DNA from: Nereocystis luetkeana
Taxonomy: Eukaryota; Sar; Phaeophyceae; Laminariales; Laminariaceae
Reading direction: 5' to 3'
Assembly: GCA_031213475.1 (NCBI GenBank)
Contig: JARUPZ010000037.1
Coordinates: 1,800,222-1,864,221, forward strand
Length of the DNA stretch: 64,000 nucleotides
Shown in pieces: positions 34,775 through 51,008 of this stretch. The position numbers and the translations under genes were made by a program. Position 1 is the stretch's first letter; each line of letters begins with the position of its first letter. The notes beneath the pieces are model-generated. The model was not told the DNA's origin, searched no databases, and saw only the letters and a program-made list of their open reading frames with translations.

Positions 34775-37700
34775 TTAATCGCCTCTCTTGGGCGAAACGG
34801 TGTAGAACGCCTGCATTCCCGCCAGGATGTGGTCGTTGACATGGCTGCAATGAATGGAGGCCAAAAACAGGCGGCAGTAGCAGCATCAGCATCGCCATAG
34901 GAGGCCAACAAAGGGGGAACAGAAAAACAGGCGTGAAGAGCAACGGGGTCGGCAGGGGCGAGGGGGGGGGGTGCTCATTATTATGCATGGGCGTAGTCGT
35001 GGGGGGGGGGGGGGGGGGTTGTACTCGATAGGAGAGACGTACTCGATCTCATGCATGGCCGTGGGAGGGGGTGGGGGGGGGTGGGGTACTCGATAGGAGA
35101 TATGTACTCGATATCATGCATGGCCGTAGTCGTATGACCATAGACCCTCGCATCCCTACAATGCCGGGACGGAGCATGTCGGGTTTTCACCGACCAGGCA
35201 GACATTGCTTGCACCAAGCGCGAAGCGCCGTGAGGGGTCCGGCGAGTCGCATGAAGGGTGAGCTGCATCCTACTAAGAACCGCTTGTAAGGCAGACTTGC
35301 ATATGGATGACAGCTTCTGTGAGTTGATTTAATTTCCGGTGTAGGCATTTCCAGAGACATCAGTGGGAGTACTATGTAACTGCCTCTTGGGTGCCTTACC
35401 TTGAACACTACGTGATTCGACCATTCCCACTTGTGCGGAGTAAAGGTTCTTCACCTGGCACAAATGATCTAACTCGACAACCAGCTGTGGGCGGCCGCCA
35501 AAAAAAACAAAAAAAAAACGGTACCCTGGTTGTCTAGCACACGTAGTGAGCGGCATGTTTTACAGTGTCGCTGCCAACCGACGCCAACCCAGCCTATGTA
35601 AAATAGGGGGGGGGGGGGGGGGAGCAAGAACCTGGGAGTGAACAGTCAAGAAAAAAAAGAAAGTAACAAAGTCGTGGGCTACCGCGATATTTGTATCACG
35701 ATGGGCGTTGTGAAATTTCACTCCCGGGATCAACGCCAGGCACTAGCTTTTGGGCGTGGAATAAGCACCGTGCAAGGGCGGCACAGCAGGCGCGACCAAA
35801 AGCGCGACGACACCAACGACAGCGTCGTCAAATAAAAGCATGACAGTGCATTCTGGAATCAACGTGAGAAGCATTGTATGCAACGACGCGGGACAATCGA
35901 TAAACTTCTTCAAACGAAAGTTAAATCGCGGTTAAAATATATATGGAAACTCTTTCGTGTGACGAAACTACAAAAAAAACGTCTGCGCCCTCCCAGAGGC
36001 CCCCGGAAACTCCGTGTGTGAAACAAATGTCTTGATTTCTCCATAAGGGTAACGCCTGAACTTTATGAAACTCCCTCCTCCTGCGAGAAGCTCTATCCTA
36101 TTTGTATGTCACCCAACAACAGCCGATCTTGATAAAAACTGTAAGCTGTGGTTACTTTTCAAATTATATTGTCATTTTACAAGACAAAACTTATTTACAG
36201 TAAGCTTCCGATGACATTGGTTAGTGTTGTCAGTTTGGCAGCTCCCTTAAGACCGTTGTTGTTATCGAAGAGCTTTTTTTCGAGAAATTCCTAGTTTGGA
36301 AAATTGGAACCATGTATCGATACTTGGAGGCGTTCTGTCACAATCTGTGAAATTCTTCAGAAGGAAAAATATCAGGAAAGTTAAATTTCACATATTTGGA
36401 AAAAACGAAATCAAGGAAGACAAATATTGTGCGAAAAACAAAGCTCTCCGATCGCAACGGCCCTTATGATACGAGTAGTGTCTCAAGCAATAAAAATCGT
36501 TGTAAAAAAAGGTGCTACGAACCCCATCGAAGAACTCGTCGTCATATCATTGCTGGCAAAACGCTCGAAAGACAGCAGAGCACGTCACGAGCCAGGGAAA
36601 AAAATGTATTTACTCGTAGTTGAAACACGAACTTACCAATGGAACCTGTCGGGCGAGGCCGTGGCAGTAGTCGGAAGGCGTAGTTGTCGTGCAAGGACCA
36701 GCGCCAGCGGTTAAAGCGCGCAACGGGGAAAGTTTCCAACCGAACGGGCCGCGGAGCAAAAGCGCACAGCAACGGGAAGGCTCGATAAGGACAGACAGGT
36801 TACAACGATTCCCCACTGTCTGGGCGCGTGCTATATACCTGGTATGCGATAGGGGTAGCACTCTTAGGCTCAAATGTTTGTGACTGACTGTTAGGATACT
36901 CCTCCACTGAGGATTTACCGAATGTCACTGGGATATCATTCGCGTTCTACAACTAGTTTTTCGTGTGTTCCTTGGGCCATGGAATTGCTCATCGGATGTG
37001 CAAATCCCTTTTCTAATAAGGCCAGTTTTTGGGTGGGAGTTCGTATAGAACCCAAGCGATGAGCCTCAGAGAATATTAGGTGCACCCTTACCCCTGAAAA
37101 AATATTATTAAAGTAGCCTTTTACAGCCAAAGTTAGTGGACTAGACTAGTTTCAGGCTGGTTGGTGTCAATTCAACATGGAATCGCTATGTATGTAGTCG
37201 ATACGTCCCGAAGGCTCCAACGAGACGCATGGCCACTGCTATGACTTCGTCGTACAAATAAATGTACAATATCTCACAGCCAAGTGCCGACGGAGTCTGG
37301 GGTCATGATTGCCGTCAGGAAGGTCGAGGGCAACAGCTCGAGCGTGTCCACATTCCTATCCTCGAACTTGACGTTGTTTCCATGCCAGTGTGCGGTGTGA
37401 AGGTCCACCTGATACGGTATAAACGTGGGGGGGGATGTCGTAAGACCCGAGGAACTCATCAAACCATCCAAACACAGGCGGGGGGGGGGGGGGGGGGGGC
37501 TTGATGTGGAAGGTTGAGGTGTGTATATTACGTCGAAGGTGAATTTCCAGGGTGTCGCAGGTTTCAAGTGTAACTTCCCTTGTGGGCGTTATGATATACT
37601 TGGTTTAGGGGGGATGGGGCTGGTGAGGGTCTCAACCCTTACATGTGCTGTGGAAGGGGGGGAGGGGTGAATGGCGCACTCATGTGTTTCTTGACTTAAT

Positions 37701-40700
37701 TACTTGACCATCATTGACCACGAATCCCTTTCGAAGCGGAGCACAGCGTAAAATTCAACTTCGAAACTAGTGCAGTGAGTGAGTTAATCGCGTTCTTTAT
37801 CGTCAAGGCATCATCTTCTGTAAGACCATAATCCATCGCGCGAAAGTTGGCGGATTGCCGCGTCTCGTCCGTCAGGCTTCCCTGTTTCGGTCAAAGTGGT
37901 CAAAGACCCCAGACCGAGCAATCTACGCCGATACAGAGCAGCGATTAGCCCGTCTCCCAAAATAACGAAACAGGTGGGCACAATGGAGTACAAGCGAGAG
38001 GGCGACAGGACCGTTGCCGCGTGTAGACGTACACCACAGTACGACAACCAAACGTCTATCAGTAGGAAGGGTGTAGATCACCTCCGTGCCGTATGCTGCA
38101 ACGTGCCAGCGCACGGTGTCTCCTTCCTTCATATTCAAGCCGGGAAGATTGCCGTACACGAAACCGTTCATCGAGTGCATCAGGTTAGACTCTTCGAAAT
38201 CCTGCAAAGCATGGGCCGAACGAGGAGGGCAATTGATTAAGATGTGTCTGTAATAATTTGTTGAATTCGTTCATCGGGTGCATCAGGCTAGACTCTTCTT
38301 CGAGAACCTGCAAAGCGAAAAATACATATATATGTGTCCTGTATTGTTTGTTAATTTCGTGATTCACGCGCGACAAACCTCCACAGACGAAGCAGGCGAC
38401 AGCGATCCGCCTCTTATTCGTCTCGTCAAAGCCGAGCATGACGTCAGCGACGATGAAGTGTTTGTTGATAGTTCTTGCACCACAGAGCTTCTGCTCTTTT
38501 TTCTACACTAATGGAATATAAATAAATGCTGTTGTTGGGTACAGGCGCATGTCGCCAAAACAGGCATTTTCTGATACCGAGTCAGGCACAGCACACCTAC
38601 TACATGGAACCTGCAGAACGAACCCCAAGAAGAGAAAAAAACTACCATAGGTACGATATGTGATATCGACTGCCAATTGACAACTGTTACAGCTGGTAAT
38701 TCACCCGGAACGTCAGCCATCTCTCCCCAGCGGCTCCTTTACAGCCACAACCGACGGCCACCAAGCAACAGCTGGTCATTGCCATTCGCCGAGACGAACG
38801 CCGACCACCCCCAACATATTTCTGGCAACCAACAAAAGATCACAAAACCAGCGGTGGCTGTCGAGGGTGAGGCGTAGCACCGAGAGTTAAAACTAAACTG
38901 TGTGACGTGTTTGGCGTGCGATGGGTGACACACTTGTAGGCGACGGTCGCGTGCGCGTCGGCGGCCAGCTCACCGCGTCATCGGGATCGCCACCGAAAAT
39001 GTCGATGTTGGTCTGCAAGTAGTGGGATTGGTTCTCGTCAGACACTATGAACAGGATCACAAACTCCTCGTCGACGTCCTGCGAAAACGCACAAGATGGG
39101 GCAGGGCAAGGTTAATTTCGCCCACTCATACGTAGAGTGTATAGATAGGTGCAGCAACAGTCGAGGTTGGTGGCTGAGGGCTGAAGGGCGGCAGACTCTA
39201 GAGAGAGGGGTGGTACAGAAAGTGCAACAAAAATGGATGGCTTACAGCTTGACGCTCACTGCTTGTCTGTCGTGGGTATGACATATATATTGAGTTTGGT
39301 CTGCCGCCCACGTTTACGAGATGCTACACCTCCCTTTATTTAGTCGACAGCGGGGGTAGCGGAATCGGCGTCAACCAAGAAGGTGTTGTGGTGGAGTTCT
39401 AGCTACTAAGTATGCAAAAGACCTTCAGGAACCTCCATACAGTACAGAGGTGTGATGCATGTCACGGTACCGGTGCACCTGAGAACAGTGCTTACGCAGC
39501 CCCTCGCTTGAGCATGCACCCCCATACCTCGCCGAAACAGCTAACTTTAGGTGGGCCTCGTGCGACAGACCCATGGCGTGTTGGCTTGCTAGGCTTGTAG
39601 CCAATATTACTGAAAAAACGAAAACGGTAGTTCCAACGATATTGGGCATATATATGTAAGAGTAGTACCTAACCTTATTTGGAAGGATTTTTCCATCATC
39701 AGTCAAAAACAATACTGTAAGACCGAAAATCTCTACCTCGATTGTAGCACGTATCTTTTTTTTCTCTATACTGGCTTCCCCTGTCAAGTATACCCGATAC
39801 GCGGGCGCCCGCTGGATTCCGTAAAAATATATATATATCAACGCTACGAGCCTATCTATACAAAACCGTTCAATGCGTCTCGAAGGAATGCAAATACACT
39901 GGTGGGGAGATATACAAGGCTCTCCAGATCGTGCCGAAAGGTCTCTACGTCGACTAAAAGAAATGGGGCATTCGGCGAAGGCTCCTGCAAGTCATCTGTT
40001 GGGCTTCACCGCTCCAGGTCAAAATTGGGCGAAATTTCGATATCACGGTCCCGAAATGCCTCCTTGGCAGTAGTAGCGGTACTCGTGCCGGGAGAGCCAG
40101 TTTCAGGCGTTTAGGTAAGATCGTTAGAGGGAATTATAGAGCATGCGAAAGCTCCCTTCAGGGGGGTATCGTATCGACGCAGAAAAATACTACCAATACA
40201 GCGTCGTATACATGCCATACTGTAATTTTAGTGGTACTGCGTGGAACGATATACTTGCCTTGGGAAGCCCACGGCTATTGAGAACCCCTTTTTTGTAGAT
40301 GATGAGCGGTCCCATTTGCCCCGCGTAAATGTCTCGGACCGAATCTACGTGTCCGTGGTAAAACCTGTGAAGCACACCAGGTATGACAACAGCATGTGTG
40401 TGGCGTCGTAGGGAGGAGAGGTTGATCGACTCCCACATCCTCCCACATCCATCACAACGACCAAAATCGATCGGTCTCGAGCGACTCACGCGCCGACAAA
40501 AACCCAGGTGCCCTGAGAGAGAGCAAGCGAAGTATTCGAGTAACGGTCGGGCGGCCGGCCGGCCCATCCCGGAGTACAAGTGCATCAACCGAACTCGCGC
40601 ACTGCAGATACCATGTACACTCTGCACCGGCCACCACAAAACGACCCCTTTCCCTTCTGGCCTTGCCTACACGACCCAATCTCACAACTACATGCATGTC

Positions 40701-43700
40701 TCGCGATGACGATCATCGTGGCATCCTCTTTCCCACCAGAGATTGCTCTTGTCGTCCCCGGTTGGGCCAGAGGCCTCTCGCGCAGTCCACTCGTAAACAA
40801 AGCTGTCGCCGGGAGCAACAGACGATCCTGGGAATGTGTTGAGCCTCCAGAAGGCCCCATCGTTCTCGGGGGTGTATTGCACTCCATGGGGGTGCATGGA
40901 AGCAGGGAGGCTGCCGGGATCGGAGAAACAAAAGACGGGGGTGGTTGGGGGTGGGATTGAGAGTGGGCGTGGAAGAACCGCGGTATATACAACCTATAGA
41001 TATCGCGCTCAGTCTGCACACTTTGTGATACCTCTACTGGTAGGAAAGTTACGTGATTTGCCTGTTGTACGTAGCACGCATTTGTCTCGATCATGTATTG
41101 ATGTCGTGTAGTGATCGTAAAAAACTCACTCAGGGAGCATGTTCTTGAAGTGGACCATGATTGTGTCGCCGACCTCGGCCCGTATGATGGGTCCGAGGTT
41201 CCCCGCCCACTCCGGCGCTTCCTTCTCCGTCGTGTACGTGTCATCCGTGTACTCTTTGTACAGGGACTGCGCGGCAGTAGTACAGTAGGGAGCAGAACGA
41301 AAGTACAGCAATTTCCCGCGGTGCACATACGAAGTACTATTAACTGATACCGCGAGGGCGAAAGAGAAATATAGGCTAGCCGTCGCTACAAACTCGCGCA
41401 TCAGGATATTTGTAACTGACGTCAACGTTTGTGTGCGAATCGCGGACGGTGTACGTCGGACATTTCTGGAAACTCGAATGAGGTCTCTGTTTTTAGACGT
41501 CAAAACTAGAAACTCGCATATTCGCCGGTACACATACACATGGAAAGGATATTTGTCACTTTTTTTCGGCGGCACTGTAGCTTTCGTGCTTTGCCTATTC
41601 ATATTAATGTATTGCTTGTAGGTATATACGTACTACTCCTGCTACAGTTCAGGCAGTAGGTAGGTGGTGGGGAGAGCAAACGTTTGAGTGGCGGCAGGGT
41701 TATTGTGCACTTCAACTCGTCAAGTCGCACGCGATTCCATCGGACGAAACGCAGCAGTACCATTACGGAAAGTATTGATGAGCCAGTAGAAGAGCTGAAC
41801 ATCGAGTAAATGGTTGGCACGCACTGCACGCGGTACGTAGAGGGCTAACTAGCTCTAAGCTACGGTTGATTGGGCTTGGGTTTGGTTTATAGTTTAGAGT
41901 TGAAGCAGTAAAATAGTTGTACTGGTATAGCACAACCGTGTTGTCCACCATTTTATTGGAAAAGTGGTACGACGTCTAAGCTATGGTTGATTGGGTTTGG
42001 GTTTGGTTTATAGTTTTAGAGTTGAAGCAGTAAAATAGTTGTACTGGTATAGCACAACCGTGTTGTCAACCATTTTATTGGAAAAGTGGTACGACGTACC
42101 GGTACAGCAGTGTAGTATTAATAGTATAATATACCCAGGGTATGATACAAGTCATCCTCCGGCGAACAACGAACGGGCGGGCATGATCAAGCGATGCAGG
42201 TCAATCCAGAAGGAATGCGGACGACTCGACCTGCTGTAGTTACTCTCTGGCATACAGCGCGTCTTGCACAAGCATGCTCACTCACAAAATATCGCTTCTC
42301 TGTATATAAGACATAAGGTCAGCATCACCAGCATCATTGATTCACCAGCAGCAGCAGCATACTCGTTGGTCATTTTTATGTTTTTACTTTCATACGAATT
42401 ACCCCGAGTTGTCGGCGTGTGGGGCCTCGAGCGACTGGAGGCCTCTATTTTATGGCATGCACTATAGAATAAACATATTAGTATTGTGCTTTCCATCCGG
42501 CAATGTGCGGCATGAGCTTCAACGCTGATCACTCAAAACATTCCTGAAACAAGAAATCCCCGGAAACAAAGGAAACCTACCTTTTATTTCTACTCCCCTC
42601 TATGTTTCATGCACGATACTTTATGTGTTGTCTGAGCTCCCCCTCCTACATCTCAATAATATGTGTTTGTCCCTCTCTATTCTTAGTCCCTAAGCCGCAT
42701 CCAAACTTCGTCCCCACGCCATCGGTGTGGGTCTGTCATCCCCGCCCCCCCCTGCTCCTTCTCGATTCCTGACGACCCCTAAGCTGGAGTCTGAAGCGCG
42801 ACACCCTCCTCGAAATAAATATGTAATCGTTGGCTGGCGAGTTTTTATGCCCCGTTCAGGGATTCGGAATTAATTCTGTGATATATATCTGGTAACAACT
42901 TCGTAATGATGTTGATATTAATAATTTAATAACAATAAAAAGATGACAAAATTGGCGGCGTGCGGCCCTCTGAAAAATTATGGGAGACGTGCAGAATATT
43001 TCCCACTATTAATACTGTCGAAAAGAACAGCAGTATTTCAGTTCGTCCAGCAGCAGCTGGATATAAAACCGGAATGTACTGCTGTAGTTGGGCCATCTTG
43101 TCTATCATACTATGGTTCGGTTGTTGTGCCAGCGTGAAAACTCCTAATTATACACACCTACGTACCATTATTATTACGGACTCGATATTGTGGCCATGAG
43201 CTACGCAATGACATTGATTGTGAGGACAAACAGCAGCAACATGCGACAAGTGGTTCTACATTCTTCCCGGGCATAACAACACTCGAGATAATATGATATG
43301 TATTACCATATAATATATATATATATATGTGTGTTGCCTTTACATTAAACCGTTATTTCTACCCAACTTCTCCAGTACACCCAGTCAGTGCCCGTTCTGA
43401 TTCCTTATCCTATGATAGAGAGATACTATTAATATTTTGTGTACCGGCCGATTTCGCGATCATTATAGTAGACGTGAAAATACAATACCTGGTACATCAG
43501 TACCACATGAAAATATGACCCGGGGTGTTTAATCGAGATATGGAGATCCACAAAACGGACATAGAATACCTGGTATGATATTCGTGATTCAGTACAGCAG
43601 TACAGTGCTCGTAGTATAATAGTGGCGAAGTTTGAAACTATGCTTCCGAGTATATAATTATTAATTATTGTAGTATGTACTGCTGATGAAGTCTACAGAC

Positions 43701-45010
43701 AGTGGTAGAAATAGTATATCGTCATTGCGCACCTTCATGTATTTCTGTCCTATGAGCGACGGAGTGTCCTCGATGAAGACGACGGCATCCTCGTTGTCCT
43801 CCAGAGGGACGCCATCGATAAGGTCCTCGCCGGTCGGCGCGTAGTCCCACTCAACCTGCAACAAAGCACGACGAGTGTGTGCGTACGCGAAGAACGGCGA
43901 AGAAGGGTGTTGTGAAGAGAATAGACATGAGCATACCCAGCCAGAGCTCTACAGCAGCATCGTGGGGGCTCGTAGCATTAATAGGGTCTAGCGCTCTAGA
44001 GGCATGCGCCATGACGAGTAAAACACCAATAATAGCACTATTAATATTATTAATAATGTATCTGCACTTTTTGTAGCAACACACTATTATTATTATCAAT
44101 AATACCTGCATGGATGGTGGTAGAAATTGAGGTAACACTTTCGTCCGCGATGGAACGTGTAATCTGAACATGCCACGTTCCTTTTGCCGGCTTCGGGTAT
44201 AACCATTCACTTGACAAAAGCACGCAGAGTACGCGACACCATTAACACAACTTTTGGGCGAGGCTCACGTTCTTATTGTTGTTTTATTATCGTGTGCGGC
44301 AGAGTGTTTTCCTCACTAATTCGCTATATATAGAAAGGTTTTCTTATATTTCGTGCTAAAGCCCCGCCAAAATCAACTCCCAAATTAGTGATGGCTGTCG
44401 CGGACTCTGTAATATCCCCTGCCGTCAATGACCAATCATTATCATATATAGTGCCTGTAGTAGTCTGTTATTTACATATCAGGTACCTGGTTTACTGGGT
44501 ACAGCATATTTTGTAGGGTAATACCATTGAAGTCTACCGGATACTGTTCGAAATGTATGTGTACAATAATACGTATTGTATGTGTGTACTACTGTTTTTT
44601 CTCATTTGATTTATTATGTATGTGTAGAGAGAGGCGTTTCTACGGCTCACCACATCATGCGTCCATACTTTTATTTCTTCGCACACACCGTAAGCAACCT
44701 AATACGGCATCAAGATTATAGCAGCCGCACAACTCACGAGTTCGGTGGTGATGTAGAAGTTCCTGACGGTGCTGACCGATGGCTTCTTGCGTCGGTCCGA
44801 GTTGCGGTTTGAGTCTTTCGCGTAGGTCCTCCTCCCCGAGGTAGCAGATACCTCCCGAGACAAGACTGCCAAGAGAAGAAGAACATAACTCCCGGCAGCC
44901 AAGGTCGAGGTGAGAGAAACCCGGCGGTTGAGGTTAGACCTCCGGCCACATGACGACCTGGGCGCGTTTTGCTCCCTGTCGGCGCTGCGGCGGCGGCAGT
45001 AGTCAGCCAT
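34775..45010 (-). CDS. Two-domain multicopper oxidase, ceruloplasmin/hephaestin-like (putative ferroxidase)
   Basis: Ten exons in transcription order: 45010-44738, 43855-43733, 41266-41130, 40910-40737, 40364-40259, 39078-38974, 38201-38082, 37408-37278, 36645-36637 (9-nt microexon) and 34844-34775 (TAA). The phases agree and the CDS is 1248 nt (415 residues). The first exon carries a basic N-terminus and a hydrophobic stretch ([10 protein letters not shown]), a signal peptide or anchor. Domain 1 begins near VEWDYAP and includes [19 protein letters not shown], then the copper motifs MHPHG and YHGHVD. Domain 2 begins at [10 protein letters not shown], then LHTAHWHG and [12 protein letters not shown]. 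These are the four canonical multicopper oxidase motifs: ten His, one Cys and the axial Met. Domain 1 lacks a type-1 Cys, so the type-1 site is only in domain 2, as in small two-domain laccases. Sequence similarity is to ceruloplasmin, which has six domains; here there are two. Iron oxidation for uptake is inferred. Exon 5 ends with a GC donor (AAG|GCAAGT). The ATG at 45010 was chosen as the first in-frame Met. Confidence 0.88.
35052..35605 (+). repeat. Family D dispersed repeat, copy 4 (long form)
   Basis: Runs through all shared blocks and adds a 3' part also seen in copy 6: GCGGAGTAAAGGTTCT, an A-rich stretch, GGTTGTCTAGC, GAGCGGCATGTTTTACAGTG and CCGACGCCAACCCA. The head (CATGCATGGCCGTGG/GATAGGAGA) is tandemly repeated at 34980-35110. 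It is antisense to and just right of the last oxidase exon, inside an oxidase intron. Confidence 0.75.
36262..36445 (+). repeat. Family G dispersed repeat, copy 2
   Basis: Counterpart of 8288-8480: CGATACTTGGAGGCGTTCTG, AATCTGTGAAATTCTTCAG, AAATATCAGG, GGAAAAAACGAAATCAAGG. It lies in the oxidase intron left of the microexon. Confidence 0.6.
36890..37100 (+). mobile_element. Family C element, strongly degenerate copy
   Basis: Retains TTGGGCCATGGAATTGCTC, a CAGTTTTTGGGTG segment and GAGCCTCAGAGAATATTAGG in family order. It lies in the oxidase intron between the 131-nt exon and the microexon. Confidence 0.5.
41854..42097. repeat. 122-bp tandem duplication in an oxidase intron
   Basis: The segment from CTAAGCTACGGTTGATTGGG to GAAAAGTGGTACGACG occurs twice in direct succession with few differences. 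It lies in the intron between oxidase exons 2 and 3. Confidence 0.9.
42600..42830 (-). repeat. Family F dispersed repeat, copy 2
   Basis: Minus-strand counterpart of 4437-4625, in the oxidase intron between exons 2 and 3. Confidence 0.65.
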
Positions 45011-49800: not shown

Positions 49801-51008
49801 TCCTCCGCCGCCTTCAGAAACAGCGAATCCACCGAACCGGACAGTAGCGTACCAGGTACCGCGTATGTCCCACATTACCCCCCACCTCTGTATGAGCCGT
49901 GATGGCAATGGAGAAGCGAGGGTTGGCGTATTGTATATTTTGCGACCGGGGTTCCCTCTCGTCCTATCCTTGGCTGCCAACTTGGAAACAAAAATGCGAG
50001 TAAATGATGCGTCGCCTCCTTCATGGGAGGGATGCCGTTGTGTTGCTCCGACGCCTGGCGCGTGCATGCCTTTGACAACCCGATGGCGCCAACCTCTCTA
50101 GTCGAAGCCCGAAAAACGAAAACAACGCAATGCTCGTGGTTCCCTGTTTCATCATATTAGTATTAATAATATTCGCCTGCTGCACGCTACGATACGCCTC
50201 GCGCAGGATGACCACGACGGACAAGGGCTACCTAAACACGCTCTGCGGGAACCGCCCCCACCAGGGCTTCATCCTGAAGGCGCGCCCGCTAGACTTCGAG
50301 CCGATCCTCTTCCTGCCGCGCGTCGAGGACAACTCCACCCCCCCTTCCAAGGTGACCAACGCCGACATCGAATCTGCCCCCTCTACGGCAGAGGCAACGG
50401 ATAACGGCGACGACCAAGAAGACGGTGACGAAGAGGGGGCCGCGAAGGTCGCGCGAGCACCAGCCGCGCCCCTGGGCGCGGCAAACGGGCAAGTCTGGCT
50501 AGCCCTAGACGAGGTCACGGACCCGCAAAACTTCGGTGCGCTCCTCCGGTCGGCCCACTTTTTCGGCGCCAGTGGAGTCGTGGCCTGCGCCAAGAACTCG
50601 GCGTCTCTGACGGCCACGGTGAGCAAGTCGAGCGCCGGCGCGGTGGAGGTGATGCGGGTCCACTCGACGGCGAACATGATGCGCTTCCTCAAGCGGAGCC
50701 GGGAGAACGGCTGGCGCGTGGTGGGCACCGCGGTAACCGAGAGTTCGGCCCCTCTGTACGACCTGCCGGCGGGCCCGGACGCGCCTCCAACCATCGTGGT
50801 GCTGGGGAACGAGGGCTACGGAGTGCGCACCAACGTGCTGAGAGAGTGCGAGTTTCTGGTGGAGGTGACGGGGGCGGGCGGGGGCGCCGAAGCGGAGGGC
50901 GCGGCGGCGTCTACAGTGGACTCGCTTAACGTTAGCGTCACGGGAGGGGTCATGCTGTTCCACTTGCTCGCCGCGACGAAGGCAGCGGTGGCGCCGACCA
51001 CGGCGTAG
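46866..51008 (+). CDS. SpoU/TrmH-family rRNA 2'-O-ribose methyltransferase (MRM1/RlmB-like), organellar
   Basis: Three exons: 46866-47994, 49348-49561 and 50207-51008 (TAG), phases agreeing, 714 residues. It probably methylates the 2'-OH of a guanosine in organellar large-subunit rRNA using S-adenosylmethionine, as RlmB and MRM1 do. Residues about 396-480 (MVYGIAPVLNALRNDRR, then NRPHQG) match the substrate-binding domain. The SpoU domain follows, with motif 1 LDEVTDPQNFGALLRSA near residue 547, motif 2 LGNEGYGV near 647 and motif 3 LNVSVTGGVMLFHL near 688; this is the trefoil-knot SAM site. Residues roughly 110-370 are Gly/Arg/Ser-rich with RGG-like repeats, far longer than in bacterial relatives. 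The first 40 residues have a hydrophobic run and an A-F junction (GHAFHVN) resembling the heterokont plastid signal. In-frame ATGs at 46611 and 46989 are alternative starts; the latter would give a mitochondrial-type leader. The exon 1 donor (CTAT|GTGAGA) was chosen by phase and is the least certain boundary. Confidence 0.85.

Follow-up and report, generated by a model that had tools for sequence, protein, structure and literature searches.

A nine-base microexon very probably encodes part of the copper site in a two-domain multicopper oxidase gene of the brown alga Nereocystis luetkeana

In a multicopper oxidase gene of the brown alga Nereocystis luetkeana, two coding exons join in frame without the Phe-His-Cys of the copper-binding HCH motif, which raises the question of whether these residues come from a very short exon lying between them. 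The stretch of DNA analysed, referred to here as the window, comprises 64,000 nt of the forward strand of contig JARUPZ010000037.1 (positions 1,800,222-1,864,221; assembly GCA_031213475.1), and genome-wide searches covered 465,085,209 bases, window included. An earlier note on this DNA had placed nine bases between GACAG and GTAAGT on the minus strand and read them as a microexon, flanked by an exon ending TGG CT at 37278 and another starting C CAT GTC AAC at 34844. All of these placements agree with the sequence, and the cassette AG/GTTCCATTG/GTAAGT is present exactly at 36645-36637 (-). We conclude with high confidence that the nine bases form a genuine coding microexon, one most likely included constitutively, in the gene of a ceruloplasmin-type two-domain multicopper oxidase that is probably secreted or membrane-anchored.

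The oxidase gene is intact, with ten exons on the minus strand from 45010 to 34775 encoding 415 amino acids; the exons around the microexon were correctly drawn in the earlier note, and the start lies further upstream than it had indicated, at 45010. Acceptors are AG in all nine introns and donors are GT, save for a GC at intron 5. Exon 1 (44738..45010) opens with ATG and a hydrophobic N-terminal segment, by inspection a putative signal or anchor, and closes with RNFYITTEL, which runs into VEWDYAP; a motif scan for this exon gave no match, and it was later recognised by eye on reading upstream of exon 2 and then translated, with a counterpart in the paralogue described below. Exon 2 (43733..43855), ending IGQKYMK, was found by using prokaryotic N-termini as tblastn queries (best E 4e-10), and the translations in the gene model give exon 3 (41130..41266, ending FKNMLP), exon 4 (40737..40910, with MHPHGV and copper ligands), exon 5 (40259..40364, with further copper ligands and the GC donor), exon 6 (38974..39078) and exon 7 (38082..38201). 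Exon 8 (37278..37408) carries the HWHG motif and the strand leading to the type-1 loop, and ends GGC ACT TGG CT before gtgaga. It is followed by intron 8 (36646..37277, 632 nt), the microexon as exon 9 (36637..36645, phase 2 at both ends), intron 9 (34845..36636, 1,792 nt) and exon 10 (34775..34844), which includes the C-terminus. Elsewhere in the window, a long open frame at 50076-51008 (+) is reminiscent, on visual inspection, of a SpoU-type RNA methyltransferase.

The predicted protein is one cupredoxin pair, matched by Pfam Cu-oxidase_3 (62.8 bits) and then Cu-oxidase_2 (49.2 bits), both above cut-off, and among solved structures it is best matched by ceruloplasmins, which align to it with each of their three two-domain units. 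Copper-ligand motifs begin at residues 184 (HPHG), 239 (HGH), 350 (HTAHWHG) and 392 (the HCH-containing motif); domain 1 has FYHGHV without a Cys, and domain 2 has HCH...H...M once the microexon is included. We take the residues of these motifs to be the type-1, type-2 and type-3 copper ligands, as is established for multicopper oxidases. With 25 prokaryotic homologues as tblastn queries, the window returned this single unit, plus three lone matches at E 0.25-0.72, and no second or third two-domain unit was found in the window, the start and stop codons enclosing one unit of 415 residues. Five NCBIfam families matched, none of them near its curated cut-off, the viral contigs searched gave no match, and a tree with 77 prokaryotic rows gave the gene no settled place.

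At the junction of exons 6 and 7 (38974/38201), prokaryotic relatives often have extra residues, mostly about five (36 alignments, two neighbouring points). A second microexon in intron 6 is improbable, as no identical cassette of 8-30 nt is common to it and the paralogue; both copies have the reduced exon 6-7 spacing, so that a shorter loop is the probable explanation. Intron 6 also holds, at 38317-38268 (-), an incomplete tandem copy of the first part of exon 7 and of its acceptor, GCTTTGCAG/GTTCTCGAAGAAGAGTCTAGCCTGATGCACCCGATGAACG, which is a degenerate exon duplicate.

Around the microexon the minus strand reads cccgacag, then GTTCCATTG, then gtaagttc. The nine bases contribute the third base of Leu390, the codons of Phe391 and His392, and the first two bases of Cys393, so that exons 8, 9 and 10 joined encode the HCH-containing stretch. 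The claim that they restore both the frame and the type-1 site thus stands in part: the Cys is supplied, whereas the frame needs no rescue, since nine is divisible by three and the direct join of exons 8 and 10 is already in frame. The claim was also incomplete with regard to the site, as His392 comes from the same nine bases; from textbook knowledge of the HCH motif, Cys393 is presumably the type-1 ligand and His392 a type-3 ligand. The cassette is internal and within the 15 nt usual for a coding microexon, with AG and GT flanks, an intron on each side, phases that fit and a motif that is restored. Furthermore, the 18-mer CAGGTTCCATTGGTAAGT, which joins the microexon to its splice sites, occurs once in the window, and the 20-mer GACAGGTTCCATTGGTAAGT, the same word with a GA prefix, has one match in the 465,085,209-base genome. 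A spliced retrocopy of the junction was sought genome-wide and none was found (one match with two mismatches and 19 with three; 26 in the reversed-pattern control).

With respect to the splice signals, the donor GTAAGT (36631..36636) alone, out of 146 scored GTs between exons 8 and 10 (an interval of 2,433 nt), matches GTRAGT. On a 9-base donor consensus it scores 7/9, as do two other GTs of the interval, with one further GT scoring 8. The pyrimidine tract of the acceptor is not strong (10/16) and equals those of exons 3, 5 and 8. RNA folding around the cassette is not unusual (z +1.4 and +1.3).

A second copy of the gene allows a comparison within the genome. A genome search with AGNTTYCAYTGGTRAGT returned three places, namely the window gene, contig C24 and C37:2597507 (reversed-pattern control 0). 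The match on C24 has no recognisable oxidase exons in the stretches around it and was taken as chance. At C37:2597507, about 0.75 Mb away on the window's own contig, lies a second intact gene of ten exons and 436 amino acids, with identical phases at every junction and with exons 2-9 equal in length to those of the window gene. The two cores are identical at 280 of 324 residues, with dS 0.525 and dN 0.080 (Nei-Gojobori), and the resulting dN/dS of about 0.15 points to purifying selection on the two copies. Of the 16 matches from a whole-genome protein search, the window gene and the paralogue account for seven each; of the other two, one is on contig C1296 and one is weak (E 2.46). In contig C1296 (21,775 long), the 3,000 bases compared match the paralogue region at 100% identity, and the protein match there is probably a redundant assembly of one locus. 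The two copies differ in where they use GC donors, the window gene having GC at intron 5 (40258) and GT at intron 2, and the paralogue GT at intron 5 and GC at intron 2 (L091 at 3659).

We observe that an 18-nt stretch made up of the microexon and its splice sites recurs unchanged in the paralogue, at the same place, within introns that have otherwise diverged. Copy against copy, intron 8 aligns at 47% and intron 9 at 44%, with eight shuffles of intron 8 giving 42-46%, and introns 2-7 align at 42-54%. The longest word common to the two intron 8-9 intervals is CAGGTTCCATTGGTAAGT itself, at 18 nt, compared with a longest chance word of 13 in 200 single-base shuffles and 14 in 100 further shuffles. 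Among eight intron intervals, identical AG/n/GT cassettes with n of 8-30 are found only in that of introns 8-9; the two listed there (n 9 and n 13) both begin at the microexon acceptor. An unguided blastn of gene against gene likewise recovers 36678-36631 as a 48-nt block (89.6%, E 3e-9) alongside the exon blocks, the other non-exon blocks being outside the gene or out of order and dispersed-repeat-like, save for the partial exon 7 copy. An element of about 80 nt is found at 35183-35104, 6845-6758, 54132-54053 and 22581-22510, as well as in intron 7 of the paralogue, and is probably a dispersed repeat. Gene conversion between copies on the same contig could in principle preserve a short tract, but it would have to have kept the exons and the block of 66 nt described next and left the remainder of introns 8 and 9 to diverge.

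The likeness between the copies extends 66 nt upstream of the microexon (36646..36711), scoring 43 where no more than 21 was reached in 200 single-base shuffles, and ends at the donor, the bases past GTAAGT being different. This block, which ends in the acceptor cccgacag, is the best of the nine intron 3' ends; conservation near an acceptor is nevertheless not unique to the microexon, since intron 2 comes next with 36, its shuffles reaching 26 at most. It contains an exact 14-mer common to both copies, ACCGCTGGCGCTGG (36711-36698), which taken alone is no longer than the longest chance word in 100 shuffles. We regard the 66-nt block as a candidate branch-point or enhancer region that may aid an exon too short for exon definition.

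On the reading that we prefer, a constitutive microexon, the spliceosome would routinely remove introns of 632 nt and 1,792 nt on either side of the nine bases, and exons 8-10 joined in the transcript would give HCH and, as predicted, a most likely active enzyme. Because Cys393 and His392 both come from the microexon, electron transfer between the type-1 copper and the trinuclear cluster would depend on it. Retention of either flanking intron would bring a stop at codon 2, and skipping of the microexon would keep the frame, remove the type-1 Cys and one type-3 His and, as predicted, leave the oxidase dead. Skipping is thus the only one of the failures considered that leaves the frame open, and nine is divisible by three, both of which fit a regulated switch in which inclusion gives an active enzyme and skipping an in-frame, ligand-less form. 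Type B two-domain oxidases are homotrimers according to PMC13151041, so a ligand-less form could inhibit, or poison, the trimer expected here, and the conserved upstream block could hold the regulatory element. However, the GTAAGT donor favours steady inclusion, a conserved phase is by itself no proof of skipping, and plant microexons show retention more than skipping (PMC8831610). Such an on/off control strikes us as improbable, if less so than the alternatives that follow, and steady inclusion remains the reading adopted.

A different possibility is that the cassette is there by chance and that exon 8 simply joins exon 10, leaving an HCH-less product that would be a decayed oxidase or would have a non-redox role. 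The direct join is in frame, and the shortened protein still passes the Pfam threshold: Cu-oxidase_2 scores 26.1 bits without the microexon and 49.2 bits with it, so that family recognition alone does not require it, the cut-off being 20.4 bits. In addition, two of the three ceruloplasmin units do without His around the Cys (SCQ and ECL for HCH), with the Cys kept. Chance can also produce such a cassette, as we observed when the 2,433-nt interval was dinucleotide-shuffled 40,000 times: an AG/N4CAYTG/GT cassette, which encodes His-Cys, turned up in 656 shuffles. A Phe before His-Cys was present in 39 and a GTRAGT donor in six, and both together, as in the real cassette, in one. In a separate set of 5,000 shuffles, 1,356 offered a segment of at most 90 nt able to restore HC, which makes the restoration of HC alone weak evidence; the segment was exactly 9 nt in 141, of which 72 had a GT donor, 19 also had a hydrophobic residue and none had GTAAGT. 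The weight lies with the Phe, the strong donor and the paralogue. Against a chance origin, the other copper-ligand motifs are retained, the dN/dS of about 0.15 between the copies indicates purifying selection, and the cassette and its splice sites are identical in the paralogue within diverged introns, which together make a spurious cassette very unlikely.

Comparison with related proteins also bears on the microexon reading. Without the microexon, phmmer places a 3-residue gap after W or WL in all three units of the one ceruloplasmin alignment listed. The HCH motif is present in 77 of the 77 covered prokaryotic loci, out of 80 (L066, L075 and L078 were excluded from the count, the site not being covered in one frame), but this count is near-circular and carries little weight, because FHCHVNDH, itself present in 77/80, was the search seed. 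Free of the seed are a Methylocystis plasmid gene that reads FHCHVTDH, found with a query truncated ahead of the loop (the one examined among 17 records, the other 16 having 24-34% identity), and one prokaryotic locus among the 80 that reads FHCHVSDH.

Enumeration of the possible splice patterns leaves little room for another source of the motif. In the window gene, two of the 105,124 combinations of exon-8 donor, segment and exon-10 acceptor give HCHVxDH, both by means of the same 9-mer, and in the paralogue only the same 9-mer does so among 55,119 combinations, again with two exon-8 donors. None of the direct exon 8-10 joins enumerated in either copy yields HCH. A longer exon 8 as the source of HC was ruled out, because read-through meets a stop at the second codon of the intron. 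A longer exon 10 was rejected as well, the bases preceding it reading, by eye, I-H-C-S-H-V, with a Ser intruding into HCH; the nearest other AG acceptor in the enumeration list lies 129 nt upstream of exon 10. The earlier reading of the nine bases as a microexon gains support on four counts, namely the Pfam score, the phmmer gap, the enumeration in two copies and a cassette kept amid diverged introns. The second solution, found in both copies, ends exon 8 at 37281, three bases before the GT donor that follows 37278, at a GC that would drop the Leu to give TWFHCHV, and we consider it scarcely credible, as it requires TTG/GCTGTG though GCT/GTGAGA (GTGAGT in the paralogue) adjoins it, and as W-x-F-H-C-H is read in all 77 covered loci of 80, the residue before FHCH lying outside the seed.

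If the nine bases act as the microexon we propose, the active site is spread over three exons and the Cys-His step of electron transfer hangs on nine bases, which would place a strong demand on splicing fidelity. A copper enzyme with such an unseen microexon could be misannotated as dead or absent. That most gene finders would miss exons of this size, as the earlier note had expected, fits the plant literature, which describes 9-nt microexons that code for a portion of the AP2 domain and for the invertase D-P-N motif and that are often absent from annotation, intron retention being a commoner event among plant microexons than skipping (PMC8831610). The brown algal case suggests that microexons for core catalytic motifs are not confined to land plants and animals, and the accessible open-access literature, judged by titles and the opening of abstracts, yielded no description of 9-nt microexons with enzyme motifs in brown algae or stramenopiles, Ectocarpus and diatoms included. 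Furthermore, the upstream block offers a concrete candidate for how a very short exon might be recognised, and a single-unit ceruloplasmin-type oxidase in a eukaryote bears on the origin of the six-domain ferroxidases. As to function, a multicopper oxidase coupled to a permease has been proposed for iron uptake in Ectocarpus (PMC3904714), and permease-coupled iron uptake is one possible role of the Nereocystis oxidase.

In relation to known systems, the closest parallel to the microexon itself is the 9-nt microexon of the plant GH32 invertases, which encodes D-P-N/D-G/A of the beta-fructosidase motif (PMC8831610): both are internal and both carry part of a signature motif. The invertase microexon is in phase 1 and that of the Nereocystis oxidase in phase 2, and the latter belongs to a different enzyme family and to a gene from outside the land plants. 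Unlike the invertase one, it would supply ligands of two copper sites.

With respect to the enzyme, the Nereocystis oxidase resembles the bacterial and archaeal type B two-domain oxidases, having the same one cupredoxin pair whose C-terminal domain holds the type-1 site (for type B enzymes, so described in PMC13151041) and 43-50% identity in the eight matches listed. It also matches the type B order of ligands, with HxH, HxH, HxxHxH and HCHxxxHxxxxM and the Cys in domain 2. Unlike its prokaryotic counterparts, the Nereocystis gene is interrupted by nine spliceosomal introns. For eukaryotes, a 2013 survey of copper proteins with six domains describes three- or six-domain forms only (PMC3600357), and compared with the six-domain ferroxidases, namely ceruloplasmin, hephaestin and algal Fox, which have three two-domain units, the Nereocystis oxidase has one.
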